From a virus, in IMG/VR virus record IMGVR_UViG_3300009285_000365, positions 1 to 41,179 of that record: a DNA stretch of 41,179 nucleotides; one strand, written 5' to 3'. Of this stretch, positions 474-36,593 are shown in pieces. Positions within the stretch are counted from its first letter, which is position 1. The number at the start of each line of letters is the position of its first letter. The position numbers and the translations under genes are program-made. The notes beneath the pieces were generated by a model. That model saw nothing but the letters and a program-made list of their open reading frames with translations. It had not been told where the DNA came from and did not search any database.

Positions 474-1073
474 ATGAGATTAATTAAAACGAAAAAATTC
501 TGGCTCTTCAATTTAATCTTAATTTTTTTGCTGACCTCCGGCCTTTCGTGCAAACTCTTTCCGGCCAAAACTCCGCCAACGGCCCTAACACAAAATGTTG
601 AACTTTCCTGGTGGGGCGTGTGGGATAACAGTTCTGACGTTCAACCCCTGATTGATGACTTCCAGGCCCTGCATCCCAACATTTCCATCAAGTACAAAAA
701 GTTTAGATACCAGGAATACGAACAACAACTTTTAGAAGCCTGGGCCGAAGACCGCGGCCCCGATATTTACAGCATTCCCGCCACATGGATCAAAAAATAC
801 CAAAGCCGCATTGCGCCAATGCCTAACAGCGTTAAGTTATCGTTCCAGGAAGTTACCAAAACTTTAGGTAAAACCGAAGTCAACACGTACGTGAGGGAGC
901 TGGGTACCTTTTCTTTAGGTGACATTAAAAATCAATTTACCGACGTTGTCTATAATGACGTTATTTTGGATGGCCGGATTTTCGGCCTGCCCTTTAGCCT
1001 GGATACCCTGGTTCTTTATTATAATCGCGATTTGCTAACCCACACATATCCCACACTATACCAAACTGTATAG
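474..1073 (+). CDS. Sugar ABC transporter solute-binding lipoprotein, truncated at the phage junction
   Basis: The intact protein would bind a sugar outside the membrane and hand it to an ABC permease. Seen: a positively charged start (MRLIKTKK), a hydrophobic segment, and a cysteine at about residue 26 in LLTSGLSC that could be a lipid attachment site, although the lipobox is imperfect. Then come ELSWWGVWD, EDRGPDIYSIPATW and GLPFSLDTLVLYYNRDLL, all typical of family 1 extracellular solute-binding proteins. Family members are about 400-450 residues; here homology-like sequence stops after YYNRDLL (about base 1040), and about ten unrelated codons lead to a stop at 1071-1073. The gene is therefore broken by the junction. 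No Shine-Dalgarno is visible before its ATG, unlike the phage genes. Confidence 0.75.
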   Translation: MRLIKTKKFWLFNLILIFLLTSGLSCKLFPAKTPPTALTQNVELSWWGVWDNSSDVQPLIDDFQALHPNISIKYKKFRYQEYEQQLLEAWAEDRGPDIYSIPATWIKKYQSRIAPMPNSVKLSFQEVTKTLGKTEVNTYVRELGTFSLGDIKNQFTDVVYNDVILDGRIFGLPFSLDTLVLYYNRDLLTHTYPTLYQTV

Positions 1074-1075
1074 GA
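1036..1075. other. Host/phage junction, candidate attachment site (attL)
   Basis: Left of about 1040 the sequence codes for a bacterial transporter protein; right of it there is a phage terminator and leftward phage genes. Composition and coding direction change at the same place. The boundary contains ctatac-caaact-gtatag (1056-1073), which has the layout of a tyrosine-recombinase core: inverted arms around a 6-bp overlap. No integrase is in the window and the partner attR is not visible. A chimeric assembly would look the same, so this is only a candidate. Confidence 0.45.
1056..1073. repeat. Perfect inverted repeat, 6-bp arms with 6-bp spacer
   Basis: Arms ctatac (1056-1061) and gtatag (1068-1073) flank the spacer caaact. 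The repeat sits exactly between the truncated host gene and the phage terminator, which is why a recombination core is suspected. Confidence 0.6.
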
Positions 1076-1080
1076 TAAAG

Positions 1081-1105
1081 AAAGCCCCCTGCGGTAGGGG
1101 GCTTT
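1081..1105 (-). terminator. Rho-independent terminator of the leftward structural operon
   Basis: A perfect 10-bp stem (1081-1090 with 1096-1105) with a 5-base loop starts with AAAG and ends with CTTT. It lies 20 bases downstream of the last leftward gene. The stem's own A/T ends let it work in both directions, so it would also stop host transcription entering the phage. Confidence 0.8.
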
Positions 1106-1125
1106 GTGTTGCGTGACGGGGGAGG

Positions 1126-1551
1126 CTAGGCTGTAATATAAATTAATTCACCTTGTATTGTTTTTGTCCCAGACGCCGTCCACGCAGACAGCGCAAGGTC
1201 TGGATACGCCGTGATTGTAGTAGATGAGTTTGCGGCGACGATAAAACCTGCAACATACGATCCGGTATTATCTCTTGACCGAATAATATTATGCGCCGCT
1301 CCGCTTGCTGCGTGTGGCATGGTAAATGTCGCTACGGTATCGTTGCTTGTTCCAGACAGATTGAATCGCACAAAAACCAATTTACCAATACGCGTACAAA
1401 TCAGAATTTCACTTGTAAAAGATGACCACCCCGTAACGGTAGATGTAGAGTAATAATCCACAATCGCCGTTCCGCTCTCGATCATATAAGCCGATTGAGC
1501 CAGCTTCCTGACCTCGTTGATCTGCTTCTGTAAGCGTTCTATCTCATTCAT
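1126..1551 (-). CDS. Probable tail-tip / fibre protein with N-terminal coiled coil
   Basis: A 141-residue protein. The first ~20 residues (MNEIERLQKQINEVRKLAQS) look like a trimerising coiled coil; the rest is rich in Ser, Thr, Ala, Val and Ile with short alternating beta strands, as in compact C-terminal domains of phage fibres. It is the last gene of the tail module, starts with an ATGA overlap on the baseplate gene and is followed by the terminator. No sequence family is recognised; the role comes from position and fold-like features. It may form the receptor-contacting tip. Confidence 0.5.
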   Translation of the reverse strand: MNEIERLQKQINEVRKLAQSAYMIESGTAIVDYYSTSTVTGWSSFTSEILICTRIGKLVFVRFNLSGTSNDTVATFTMPHAASGAAHNIIRSRDNTGSYVAGFIVAANSSTTITAYPDLALSAWTASGTKTIQGELIYITA

Positions 1552-5110: not shown

Positions 5111-6763
5111 CTATGCACCTGCCATTGATTGCATAATCGAGAAGTCGCGCGCCAGCGTGGATACCGGCGCGTTGGAGGTCATGGTGAGGTTGAAGTTATT
5201 TGTAGTCTGCTGGTTAGGGATAATTTGCCCGTCAAGTGTAGGGACAAACAATTCCGGCCCTTCCTCGCCAACAAGATAAGGTGATCCAGAGTAGACAGGC
5301 CCACCCCCGGCTTTGGGAACAGGCATACCCGGAACGTTAGGAACCCACGACCAGTCTCCGGTCTTGTTTATGTTCGCGGTGATATTGACAGTCTTATCTT
5401 CCAGGGCTTCAATCTCCAACCGTAACGCCTCAACCGCCCCGGCGTACAGCGCGGTTTCCAGTCCAGCGTCAATAGCGCCGTTCTTGTTCAGGTCGTATTT
5501 CTCGGTAAGATCCTCAACGCCCAGCATAGCGTTATAAGTCTGCTTATCTACCAGCCCCATGGATAGCGCCAGGGCAAGCGCCGCCTCTTCGTCAAGTCCA
5601 GCCGATGCCATGTTGAATAGCAGTTCATCCGAATACTTACGCATTGCGTCTTTGGCGTTGATGGACGCTTCAGCAACGGCATCTATACCAGCGGCAGCCT
5701 CGTATGCCTGGCTTTCTTCATCGTCTAATTTCATTGCGTTATCTTGCAGCGCGTCGCGCATATTCCATGTGGCGGTAGTGGTTTCCCCCGTCTTTTGCTT
5801 TAGCCATTCGTGGGCGTCGGCCGCGGCATACATTCCCCCTTGATTGATTTCTATGTGTTCGTTGAATTCTGCCTGCGTAATAATCCCATCTTCAAGGGCT
5901 TCGCGGTATTCGGATACAACGGTAATGTTGTCTGTAATACCGTCAACTAACTCGGTTAGTTTTTCGTTAGCGTCTCTGACTTCCGGTATCAGCCCGCCGC
6001 CGATAGTCTCTTTCAGATTGCCAATCGCGTTAGTCAGCCCGTCCGACTTCGTTCCTGCGTTGTAGATTGACTCAGCCGCACCACCGAACTCAGTTTGTAA
6101 CTCCTGCAAGATGAAGGTCTGCGCCCCCATGAGGTCGCCGCTCTCAACCAGCTTCTCAATCATGTTTTGCTGTTCTTCGTTGAAAGCCACGCCCACGCGG
6201 CGCAAAGCGGTCACGCCCTCGATGGGGTCATTCAGCGCCTTGCCCAATTGCGTGACGGAGGATTGCAAATCCTGACCTAGCACCGCGCTCATGTCGATAG
6301 CGGCTTCCATTGCTTGCGGAAATACCTTCTTGCCAACTTTCGTGAATGTCAGGAGTAGGGCGCTATTCTTCTTTATCAGGTCATCTTCCACGCCCGTAGC
6401 TTTAGACATCTCCCCCGCCATGTCCTCAATATCTTCCGAGGTCAATCCAGCCGCGCCGCCCGTTGACCGGATCACCGCTTCAAGCTGCGCCTGGGCTTCG
6501 GCGGCTGCCTCTGCCTCGACAACAGATGACTTGAAGAAGTCGATCAGCATACCGCCAGCCTTCAGGATAATGCCCGAAGTGGCAAGCACAGAGAACGCCT
6601 TCTTAATGCCCCCCATGCTATCTGCTATCTTATTGGACTGCGCGGAGGTCTTATCCGCTGTCTTGCCAAGGTTCTTCAGGTCATCGTCAACCTTGTCGAT
6701 CCCCTTGACCGCGTCACCTGTGATGGCCTCGATTATGATTTGCAGAGTTGACTTTGCTACCAT
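5111..6763 (-). CDS. Tail tape measure protein (short)
   Basis: This protein sets tail length and is threaded inside the tail tube. Seen: a helical N-terminus (GDAVKGIDKVDDDLKNLGKT), a hydrophobic segment near residues 55-75 (ATSGIILKAGGMLIDFF), and the highly typical blocks LGKALNDPIEGVTALRRVGV and FNEEQQNMIEKLVESGDLMG. The C-terminal region carries the common ending SPYLVGEEGPELFVPT. At 550 residues it is short for the family; at roughly 0.15 nm per residue it predicts a tail near 80 nm. Its start lies within the end of the frameshifted tail-assembly chaperone gene (50-base overlap), the classical order. Confidence 0.85.
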   Translation of the reverse strand: MVAKSTLQIIIEAITGDAVKGIDKVDDDLKNLGKTADKTSAQSNKIADSMGGIKKAFSVLATSGIILKAGGMLIDFFKSSVVEAEAAAEAQAQLEAVIRSTGGAAGLTSEDIEDMAGEMSKATGVEDDLIKKNSALLLTFTKVGKKVFPQAMEAAIDMSAVLGQDLQSSVTQLGKALNDPIEGVTALRRVGVAFNEEQQNMIEKLVESGDLMGAQTFILQELQTEFGGAAESIYNAGTKSDGLTNAIGNLKETIGGGLIPEVRDANEKLTELVDGITDNITVVSEYREALEDGIITQAEFNEHIEINQGGMYAAADAHEWLKQKTGETTTATWNMRDALQDNAMKLDDEESQAYEAAAGIDAVAEASINAKDAMRKYSDELLFNMASAGLDEEAALALALSMGLVDKQTYNAMLGVEDLTEKYDLNKNGAIDAGLETALYAGAVEALRLEIEALEDKTVNITANINKTGDWSWVPNVPGMPVPKAGGGPVYSGSPYLVGEEGPELFVPTLDGQIIPNQQTTNNFNLTMTSNAPVSTLARDFSIMQSMAGA

Positions 6764-7288: not shown

Positions 7289-7750
7289 CTACCAGCCAGC
7301 CGTGCCGATAGTGGCAGCGGTAACGGTTGCACATTCGAGCTGCACTTCAATCAGGATAGGGTCGCCGCTATCCACTTCGCCGCCAGGATAGGGGGCGTTC
7401 TTGATGATGCCCGCGCCCGTGGTGTACCCAAGATCGCCAGCATCCCCGCCGCCGGGGGACCAGCGGAAGTAGAAGGCTGATCCAGCCTCGTAAGCGGTCT
7501 TGGCGACTGCATACAGTTCGTCTGCGTCAGGCGTGTAAACGCCGCGCACGGTGACGGTGATCGGTCCGCGCTTGCCAGCTTTCAAGATGGGGGTGTCCCC
7601 GTCAAACGTGAAGGCTGTTCCCGTGGTGCGTTCCCCGCCGGATACTTCCACGCTGTTTGAAGAGCCGCTACATTCGGTGTAAGTTACGCCAGCCGTTGAA
7701 TAGCCGACATACATGCCGGTTGCGGCCATTGCTCCAGTCGTCTGTGCCAT
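7289..7750 (-). CDS. Major tail tube protein
   Basis: A 153-residue, beta-rich, cysteine-poor protein (starts MAQTTGAMAATGMYVGYST). Seen: GERTTGTAFTFDGDTPILKAG-like strands and the block VTVRGVYTPDADELYAVAKT, followed by FYFRWSPGGG, which is typical of small siphophage tube subunits made in many copies. It follows the tail-completion gene and precedes the chaperone gene, the standard place. A strong ribosome site (AAGGAG) lies upstream, as expected of a highly made protein. No family match can be proven by eye; the position carries much of the call. Confidence 0.65.
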   Translation of the reverse strand: MAQTTGAMAATGMYVGYSTAGVTYTECSGSSNSVEVSGGERTTGTAFTFDGDTPILKAGKRGPITVTVRGVYTPDADELYAVAKTAYEAGSAFYFRWSPGGGDAGDLGYTTGAGIIKNAPYPGGEVDSGDPILIEVQLECATVTAATIGTAGW

Positions 7751-8763: not shown

Positions 8764-9075
8764 TTACACCGCCGGTACGCCGTCACCCTCGCCTGCGATT
8801 TGAAGGTACACAACATCATCGCCGCTGGTATCCGCGTCGAAGTAATAGCCCTGCAAGCCGTCTGAGCCACAGACAACTACCAGCACATTACCCAGCGTCT
8901 TGGATAGCGGGTATCCGTTGGTTGAGCCAACGTCATCCGATCCATTGTTGCCAATCCAGCACAGCGTCCCGGTGTTGGCGGTGCTTGCAATCAGGGCAAA
9001 CGTTCCCGCGCCGCTATCCGGTCCGGCAACTGCCGTGCCCGATGTTCCAACTGTGATTAATCCTGATTTAGCCAT
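8764..9075 (-). CDS. Small phage structural protein, possibly capsid decoration
   Basis: A 103-residue, Gly/Ser/Asp-rich beta protein. Seen: the pattern GTAVAGPDSGAGTFALIAST followed by NTGTLCWIGNNGSDDVGS and GDDVVYLQIAGEGDGVPAV. Short proteins with this GP-S/A-GTFAL and IGNDG layout occur in phage head modules, but no function is established to my knowledge. Very acidic, with no charged patch that would suggest DNA binding. It is spaced two bases from the connector gene and so is co-translated with it. Confidence 0.45.
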   Translation of the reverse strand: MAKSGLITVGTSGTAVAGPDSGAGTFALIASTANTGTLCWIGNNGSDDVGSTNGYPLSKTLGNVLVVVCGSDGLQGYYFDADTSGDDVVYLQIAGEGDGVPAV

Positions 9076-35258: not shown

Positions 35259-35576
35259 TTAGTTTTCGGTGGTGGTGAAAACTATTTGGGCGGCCAGGTT
35301 ACGATCCTGGTTTGATGTTCGCGACCACCAGTACACCGCGACTTCATCAGTCGGCGTCGTATGCTTTATCGGCTCTCCCAGTTTTACAAGCGCAGAGCAA
35401 CCCGCCGGAGGCTTTAGCTTGGAAACTACGAATCTGCATCGTACGCTTCGCACTTTACAGGTGTTACGGTATGCGTGTTCCCACCACGCCGCCGCCCAAG
35501 TGGAGCTGCCGCCATCGAAGGCGGGTATCCTGGCGGCTTGCGCGGCCAGGGCGTCACTGCCAGCCCCGTGTGTCAT
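35259..35576 (-). CDS. Small phage protein of unknown function
   Basis: A 105-residue protein whose ATG overlaps the previous stop (ATGA). Seen: an Ala-rich helical start (SDALAAQAARIPAFDGGSST), a Trp-rich section, three cysteines (TCKVRSVRCRF, PPAGCSAL) and a strand end YWWSRTSNQDRNLAAQIVF. No family recognised. It is followed by a 59-base gap with the repeated leader element. Confidence 0.45.
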   Translation of the reverse strand: MTHGAGSDALAAQAARIPAFDGGSSTWAAAWWEHAYRNTCKVRSVRCRFVVSKLKPPAGCSALVKLGEPIKHTTPTDEVAVYWWSRTSNQDRNLAAQIVFTTTEN

Positions 35577-35791
35577 GCCGTTACCTCGCTCCGCTCTAAC
35601 TCCAACATCTGCCGCAGCACTTCACCGGCCAGCCCGCTACCGTCAATCGCCAACTTGGCCAGGTAGAATAGAACCACATCCAAGTCGTTTGTGATGCGCT
35701 CCCGCCCGGCCAACCGGACAAGCTCATCGCGCTGCCCGTTCACACTGGCGGCAAATACTGTGTCTAACATTAAGTCGATGGATGGTTTCAT
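35573..35791 (-). CDS. Small helical protein, first gene of the leftward array
   Basis: A 72-residue protein from ATG 35791 (MKPSIDLMLDTVFAASVNGQ), chosen because an upstream ATG would run across the divergent control region. Helical throughout (DVVLFYLAKLAIDGSGLAGE, VLRQMLELERSE). A TATTAT box at 35803-35798 would place the transcript start at the ATG itself, so this mRNA could be leaderless. Could be an early regulator; not recognised. Confidence 0.5.
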   Translation of the reverse strand: MKPSIDLMLDTVFAASVNGQRDELVRLAGRERITNDLDVVLFYLAKLAIDGSGLAGEVLRQMLELERSEVTA

Positions 35792-35827
35792 ACCTAGATA
35801 ATACACGAAGTCTACAATAATTGCTAT

Positions 35828-35866
35828 ATGACATTCGTCACTATTTTTCATATTATGGTGTATAAT
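35828..35866 (+). promoter_or_regulatory. Rightward promoter of the HTH-nuclease gene
   Basis: ATGACA (35828-35833), 17 bases, TATTAT (35851-35856); a consensus TATAAT also lies at 35861-35866. Either start would lie at or just before the structured leader. The -35 box is inside the palindromic operator. Confidence 0.6.
35829..35840. promoter_or_regulatory. Palindromic operator TGACATTCGTCA (copy 1)
   Basis: TGAC-ATTC-GTCA overlaps the -35 box of the rightward promoter, the usual place for a repressor site. The matching 18 bases (ATGACATTCGTCACTATT) recur at 36581-36598. Confidence 0.55.
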
Positions 35867-35870
35867 TGGA

Positions 35871-35977
35871 TTGTTCAGGTGTTATAGCAGTTTTTTATTT
35901 GCAGACAAAGCCCTCGTTATTTTGCTTAAACTGCTAACTCCTGAACAAAGTTGCAAAAGCAAAGTAGCGAGGGTTTT
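35871..35977 (+). ncRNA. Pseudoknot-type leader RNA upstream of the HTH-nuclease gene
   Basis: A 21-bp stem (35907-35927 with 35957-35977, three G-U pairs) is followed by TTTTGTTT, so it is terminator-like. Its 29-base loop contains AAACTGCT (35928-35935) and CCTGAACAA (35940-35948), which pair perfectly with AGCAGTTT (35886-35893) and TTGTTCAGG (35871-35879) at the 5' end. The two helices together make a pseudoknot, or two competing folds. Transcription should start right at the first arm. Class unknown; probably controls the gene at 35995. Confidence 0.6.
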
Positions 35978-35994
35978 GTTTACTGGAGGGTACG

Positions 35995-36558
35995 ATGATA
36001 GACTGGGATCAAGTTAATAGTCTACGAAAGAACGAAAATATGACATACATAGATATATCCACTTTACTGGGTATTAGTTACGGAACTATCCGCAACCACT
36101 ATTGGAAGAATAAAATAGCAAGAGTTGATCGTCGCGGATACACAAACTGGAATAAACACACCCACCTTTTAGGGGTTGTTTCAGACAAAGAGATTGCCGA
36201 GAAACTTGGAATATCTATTGGAACAGTTGTTCAAAAAAGAAGGAGAGAAGGGATAGGGCCTTTTCATTCAAAAAAGACAGAACTTGAAGTTCAAAGACGG
36301 CTTGTGGCTGGGCTTACTGAGTTTAGCGAATTTGTTAGACTGGACTGTGGAATTGCAGACGTTGTAACCAATGACACGATCTACGAGGTAAAGACAAAGA
36401 TAACTGTATCTAGTGTCCAGCGTGCGATAGGACAATTATTGCTATATTCTTATTCGCTGCCAAACCATAATATGTGCATAGTTGGTGGGTCAAAGAAGAT
36501 AAACAAGCACGTAGAGAAGCGCCTAAAAGAAATTGGCATAAAAACTATTGTTGTGTAA
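35995..36558 (+). CDS. HTH protein with PD-(D/E)xK-like nuclease domain
   Basis: A 187-residue protein, clearly AT-richer than its neighbours. Two helix-turn-helix units: residues ~8-38 (YIDISTLLGISYGTIRNHYW) and ~63-85 (SDKEIAEKLGISIGTVVQKR). C-terminal residues ~95-165 look like a restriction-type nuclease core: RLDCGIADVVTNDTIYEVK (Asp117/Asp122, Glu131, Lys133) and RAIGQLLLYSYSL (Gln147). It therefore may cut or nick DNA next to its binding site, like a homing or defence enzyme. It has its own promoter, leader and ribosome site (GGAGGG), so it is probably an inserted moron gene. Confidence 0.65.
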   Translation: MIDWDQVNSLRKNENMTYIDISTLLGISYGTIRNHYWKNKIARVDRRGYTNWNKHTHLLGVVSDKEIAEKLGISIGTVVQKRRREGIGPFHSKKTELEVQRRLVAGLTEFSEFVRLDCGIADVVTNDTIYEVKTKITVSSVQRAIGQLLLYSYSLPNHNMCIVGGSKKINKHVEKRLKEIGIKTIVV

Positions 36559-36581: not shown

Positions 36582-36593
36582 TGACATTCGTCA
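36582..36593. promoter_or_regulatory. Palindromic operator TGACATTCGTCA (copy 2)
   Basis: The same 12-base palindrome as at 35829, in the 107-base gap before the next rightward gene. Downstream AT-rich boxes (TATTAT 36618, TATATA 36621) could be a -10, but no -35 matches, so a bound protein might activate rather than repress. Confidence 0.5.

Follow-up and report, generated by a model that had tools for sequence, protein, structure and literature searches.

The leaders of T4-type homing endonuclease genes (I-TevI, segB, mobE, and seg43(25)) form simple hairpins, most of which sequester the ribosome-binding site (RBS) (PMC2988022). The leader pseudoknot of gene 32 in phages T4 and T2 serves as a translational operator in autoregulation and carries a 3' A+U-rich tract; no terminator is mentioned for it (PMC3014915). 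Type III toxin-antitoxin systems (ToxIN) consist of a promoter, a structured RNA, a Rho-independent terminator, and a gene, and they need repeats and a ToxN-like toxin (PMC5086642). IsrK of prophage Gifsy-1 is a small RNA that is ended by a terminator and accompanied by a read-through mRNA (PMC4825925). Here, we describe a leader made of two interleaved helices, an architecture for which no description was found in the open-access literature. The Rfam family closest to the analyzed stretch was bglG-cis-reg (RF03530), a weak covariance-model match that scored 33.6 bits where the cut-off is 80.

Interleaved helices upstream of an HTH-nuclease gene

The analyzed stretch of 41,179 nucleotides (the window) is a virus record with portal, capsid, and lysin genes and a terminase match. 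ORFs for an NTP-transferase and a solute-binding protein are present at positions 32 to 1073, the second being truncated at the onset of the phage genes; they may represent a cellular flank or a chimeric assembly. The leader separates two divergent genes, one being a small leftward ORF (35573 to 35851) and the other a rightward AT-rich gene (Table 1), the HTH units of which were matched by Pfam. In the C-terminal core of the rightward gene product, EVK and AIGQLLLY are separated by ten residues, and because the D...EVK...Q core motif also occurs in ORFs of contigs L011, L012, L013, and L016, the product is likely a PD-(D/E)XK-like nuclease. In L011, an ORF resembling an antirepressor N-terminal domain (673 to 1454, minus strand) adjoins the ORF with this core, and the two are apparently split by a frameshift. 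A single-sequence fold model of the window's product was unusable (pLDDT 36). Searches for homologues of the HTH-nuclease yielded none from viral, genome, or phage collections and one weak HTH match in a plasmid; the matches in Pfam, PHROG, NCBIfam, and PADLOC were chiefly to HTH and DNA-binding entries, with none to a ToxN/CptN/TenpN-type toxin.

The leader region is arranged in the order promoter, A, B, A', B', T-rich tail, Shine-Dalgarno (SD) sequence, and start codon, the last being 14 nt 3' of the B' end. Arm A (35871 to 35893) pairs with A' (35928 to 35948), which sits in the loop of the terminator-like hairpin B/B'. The initial annotation had proposed a 21-bp hairpin of this kind, the loop of which pairs with the 5' end of the same RNA to an extent beyond chance. 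The hairpin was found in that place (folding z = -5.0; none of 200 shuffles was equally stable) and is slightly longer than proposed, with 25 bp including G-U pairs. The loop pairing was also borne out: it comprises 9 bp (TTGTTCAGG/CCTGAACAA) and an inner segment (TAGCAGTTT/AAACTGCTA), amounts to about -25 kcal/mol, and was matched in 11 of 20,000 shuffles of the flank and loop, given the hairpin. The A/A' inverted repeat is one of only four of at least 14 nt within 100 nt in the window.

Table 1. Features of the leader region in the window and the elements of the same layout with their downstream genes
Feature	Position	Strand	Remarks
Alternative promoter ATGACA-17-TATTAT	35828..35856	+	10/12 consensus matches; +1 near 35863
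Palindromic operator-like site TGACATTCGTCA	35829..35840	.	Upstream of leader
-10 hexamer TATAAT	35861..35866	+	4 nt 5' of arm A; -35 weak here
Arm A1 TTGTTCAGG	35871..35879	+	At or near RNA 5' end
Arm A2 TAGCAGTTT	35885..35893	+	Partner 35928-35936
U-run, first loop	35891..35896	+	In most relatives; T23-T26 invariant in alignment A6
Possible helix C, 5' strand TTTGCA	35898..35903	+	Partner TGCAAA 35952-35957
Terminator-like helix B, 5' strand	35904..35928	+	Folding, shuffles
A2' AAACTGCTA	35928..35936	+	Within B loop
A1' CCTGAACAA	35940..35948	+	Within B loop
Possible helix C, 3' strand TGCAAA	35952..35957	+	Partner TTTGCA 35898-35903
Terminator-like helix B', 3' strand	35957..35981	+	End is TTTTGTTT (35974-35981)
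Shine-Dalgarno GGAGGG	35985..35990	+	Sequence
Downstream gene	35995..36558	+	Two N-terminal HTH units and C-terminal PD-(D/E)XK-like core (EVK...AIGQLLLY)
Operator-like site TGACATTCGTCA, second exact copy	36582..36593	.	Upstream of next operon
Element, window	35871		HTH-PD-(D/E)XK-like gene
Element, L036	15032		T5orf172 domain protein
Element, L036	9882		Replication initiator
Element, L005	5694		Helicase, then methyltransferase-like ORF
Element, L005	8933		HNH
Element, L005	15817		Gene without known function
Element, L002	8169		MT-A70 methyltransferase
Element, L061	15326	minus	Zinc-finger HNH
Element, L062	17209		HNH; 45% identity to Bacillus phage HNH endonuclease, among HNH-AP2-annotated matches
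Element, L063	5829 (5829-5927)		Gene without known function

The number of promoter matches in the window varies with the choice between two -10 hexamers. Across the elements listed in Table 1, the -10 hexamer ends 3 to 7 nt 5' of A1, and the 5' end of the RNA is therefore expected to coincide with the start of this arm or to lie only a few bases away from it. The operator-like site occurs in just two exact copies in the window, each followed by CTAT, and both copies are retained in the related contig L002. A variant of this site, RTGACATTCGTCACTAT, was seen in seven other viral contigs; a site of this type precedes a likely -10 hexamer in L021, and several variants are present in L024.

The replication protein of L002 is 61% identical to that of the window. 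At positions 7456 to 7560 of L002, the promoter region is fused straight to the final codons of the nuclease gene, which persist as a remnant, and the junction lies at a GGTG repeat. A single deletion thus took the leader together with most of the gene. Over the short tail of the nuclease gene that can be aligned, the DNA of the window and that of L002 are 74% identical, which indicates that the gene predates the split between the two.

Recurrence and compensatory changes in related phages

At least ten elements of the same layout are present in five related uncultured phage records, nine of them recovered by a descriptor scan and the tenth (L063 5829-5927) by inspection. A first scan for interleaved 9-bp stems in every fetched locus gave two further sites in related phages, both just upstream of start codons; its other matches were repeats. 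The descriptor was shaped once these first three elements had been seen. With a promoter and an SD sequence required, it returned seven elements with scores of 24.9 to 35.9 (next score, 17.4; shuffles, up to 21.5), and relatives of the replication gene, with the rest of their records, added two more (31.7 and 29.4). Over 0.92 Mb in 61 loci, these nine scored 24.9 to 35.9, compared with 18.5 for the next real sequence and 22.6 for the best shuffle; the element in the window had the top score (35.9) across the window and the related phages. When the T tail was required instead of the promoter, eight elements scored above 24 (best shuffle, 21.9), namely, seven of the nine and L063 5829-5927. All eight have a promoter in the right place, with 9 to 12 of 12 matches (TTGACA-17-TATGAT in L063), against a background rate of 1 to 3.5%. 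Scans that used energy alone and allowed gapped duplexes did not separate from shuffles, and ungapped stems were used in their place; one region that scored in the gapped scan, L029 12566-12677, seems to lie inside a coding sequence and was not counted. No elements were present in the controls, for which stretches of other records from the phage group and of additional phage records were scanned, nor in the HNH-AP2 gene relatives in two phages.

The leaders are about 90 to 112 nt long, with A1 of 8 to 15 bp, a loop L1 of 19 to 36 nt that carries a U-run in most cases, B of about 9 to 24 bp, L2 of 3 to 15 nt, and L3 of 8 to 20 nt, followed by a T-rich tail after B' and then 14 to 23 nt to the start codon (values for L063 were read by eye from the sequence). 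Helix A is lengthened by A2 in most elements; this pairing, which was outside the scan descriptor, had a shuffle fraction of 0.0007 in the window and a Fisher p of about 1e-6 over seven elements. Pairing of L1 with L3 could form a third helix, C, that is weaker than A2 (0.16 in the window; Fisher p of 6e-4 over nine elements) and is left out of the argument.

The primary sequences of the elements diverge while their helices are retained. The window and its closest relative, L036 15032, have sequence in common around the U-run, and in A1, four of the nine pairs are changed on both sides and none is broken. The leaders L005 5694 and L005 8933 are paralogues, promoter included, and a base change on one side of helix A in one of them is matched on the other side. 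Arms drifting without compensation would have spoken against the RNA fold; instead, they are kept through compensatory changes, and the recurring layout and retained helices give good support to the earlier description of a pseudoknot-type leader RNA. An ordinary terminator whose loop matches the flank by chance could account for a single element, given the 11 matches among 20,000 shuffles, but for ten elements of one layout with compensation, this explanation is hardly credible.

Assignment of the leader to a nuclease gene is too narrow, as elements also precede helicase, methyltransferase, and replication-initiator genes in addition to several nuclease genes. Nucleases (HNH, GIY-YIG-like, or PD-(D/E)XK-like) appear to be the products of at least five of these ten genes, the T5orf172 domain protein being one that we take to be GIY-YIG-like. 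With nucleases making up half of these genes, some of homing type, the inverted repeats could in principle be RNA-like in appearance only and mark a recombination, homing, or replication site in DNA. We consider this very improbable, since all of the elements lie in one orientation between promoter and SD sequence and the T-rich tail follows B' on the strand of the transcribed RNA.

No Rfam 15 family reached the gathering cut-off in the loci scanned (L061 and L063 were left out), and the elements gave no Rfam match to HDV-like or other known ribozymes. A match to the type II hammerhead ribozyme that falls slightly short of its threshold (34.4 bits; cut-off, 37) was seen at L062 18429-18501, about 600 bases past the HNH gene. 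At L017 1950-2090, a unit of ~54 nt with an internal inverted repeat occurs in three tandem copies directly before a start codon.

Transcription attenuation as the favored reading

The helices have predicted energies of -25 to -32 (A) and -19 to -38 (B) kcal/mol across the elements; until B' is transcribed, the predicted fold is helix A by itself, and after that it is B in most elements. For the window, A/A' is predicted to be best until ~35970 (-26 to -29 kcal/mol) and B/B' once B' is complete (-42 kcal/mol). The region after B' contains a mean of 5.9 T per best 8 nt versus 2.8 at control starts (0 of 20,000 resamplings), with weak tails (4 of 8 T) in the L002 and L062 elements, and this T-richness points to an intrinsic terminator. 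Pairing of the SD region, which would indicate its sequestration, was not enriched, either with arm A (Fisher p, 0.67) or with the loop (Fisher p, 0.08). Together, these two results make attenuation the leading reading, and the arrangement expected of an attenuator is present as judged by sequence, with a promoter upstream and a T-tailed terminator-like hairpin between the promoter and the start codon. We thus favor, with moderate confidence, the view that the leader belongs to an undescribed class of phage 5'-leader RNA working as a transcription attenuator.

Transcription would start at, or a few bases from, arm A, and helix A/A' could form once A' is transcribed. B' would then emerge, and B/B' would become a GC-rich, T-tailed intrinsic terminator whose loop encloses A'. 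Termination just 5' of the SD sequence would be the fate of most transcripts and would leave a small, compact RNA that is paired at both ends; a fraction would read into the gene. How large that fraction is may depend on whether helix A helps or hinders helix B, or on a factor binding to the fold. Transcription, termination, competition between A and B, and a signal are all inferred here from the sequence. The earlier suggestion that the two folds compete and set expression is plausible; the strands of A and B share no more than a few bases, and loops of these lengths might accommodate both helices at once in an H-type pseudoknot. Because A and B barely overlap in sequence, helix A would not be a classical antiterminator. 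No ligand or protein common to the elements was found, nor was a leader peptide indicated, as no start or stop is common to all of them. Open frames with a good SD sequence and an ATG are seen inside two L005 leaders: the frame at 5730-5812 (element 5694; MSRARKVQRTGFLTKAALRLASFCV) has a stop that adjoins the SD sequence of the gene, and that at 8958-9062 (element 8933) continues in frame into the HNH gene.

Two other readings rank behind attenuation. In the first, A1 and B would form together as a static 5' pseudoknot, and little termination would occur; the fold would instead shield the 5' end of the mRNA from decay or adjust translation. The position of arm A at, or within a few nucleotides of, the RNA 5' end is in keeping with this, and L1 of 19 to 36 nt and L3 of 8 to 17 nt seem sufficient for an H-type fold with A1 of 8 to 15 bp; such a structure, however, has no need of T-rich tails after B', and the SD pairing results above also count against it, so that we regard it as rather unlikely. 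In the second, the terminated leader would act in trans on nascent copies or other targets, and the gene would be expressed by read-through. The order of promoter, RNA, terminator, and gene, as in IsrK (PMC4825925), and the paired ends that a terminated RNA would have are compatible with this role, but the downstream genes are unrelated and the pairing sequence differs in each element. No shared target is therefore evident, and we consider a trans-acting RNA less likely still.

An extended form of the attenuator reading is offered only tentatively, as possible rather than probable: a new class of phage riboregulator, built on a modular interleaved-helix leader that is exchanged between genes. 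Such a leader would respond to the speed of transcription or to a factor from the phage or its host, and controlled termination would let it gate early replication genes as well as homing nucleases. Since sequence searches and Rfam miss these leaders, the class may extend past the five records. If attenuation is correct, a single RNA architecture, nearly free of fixed sequence, would control many early and mobile genes in a group of uncultured phages, which bears on how phage genomes keep homing nucleases quiet, and the leader would be a compact system in which to test how pseudoknots fold during transcription.

Comparison with known leader RNAs

The order of promoter, RNA, terminator, and gene is shared with ToxIN (PMC5086642), but here the product is not ToxN-like, the downstream genes are diverse, and no repeated unit that would form a tandem array was found within the window's leader. 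As with IsrK and the P4 CI RNA, a terminator-ended RNA would be accompanied by a read-through mRNA, whereas the fold differs and no antisense partner was found. The elements resemble the leaders of T4-like homing endonucleases in that a phage RNA structure stands directly 5' of homing nuclease genes, and the hairpin of seg43(25) also stands just before a free RBS (PMC2988022). They differ from these leaders in having two interleaved helices and a terminator tail, with no signal of SD sequestration. In T4 and T2 gene 32, a leader pseudoknot likewise precedes a phage gene whose product binds nucleic acids (PMC3014915), whereas here a long terminator-like helix closes the leader and unrelated genes are served. 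The BglG/LicT antiterminator leader (RF03530) is also a 5' leader with a terminator, from which the elements described here are set apart by their interleaved topology.
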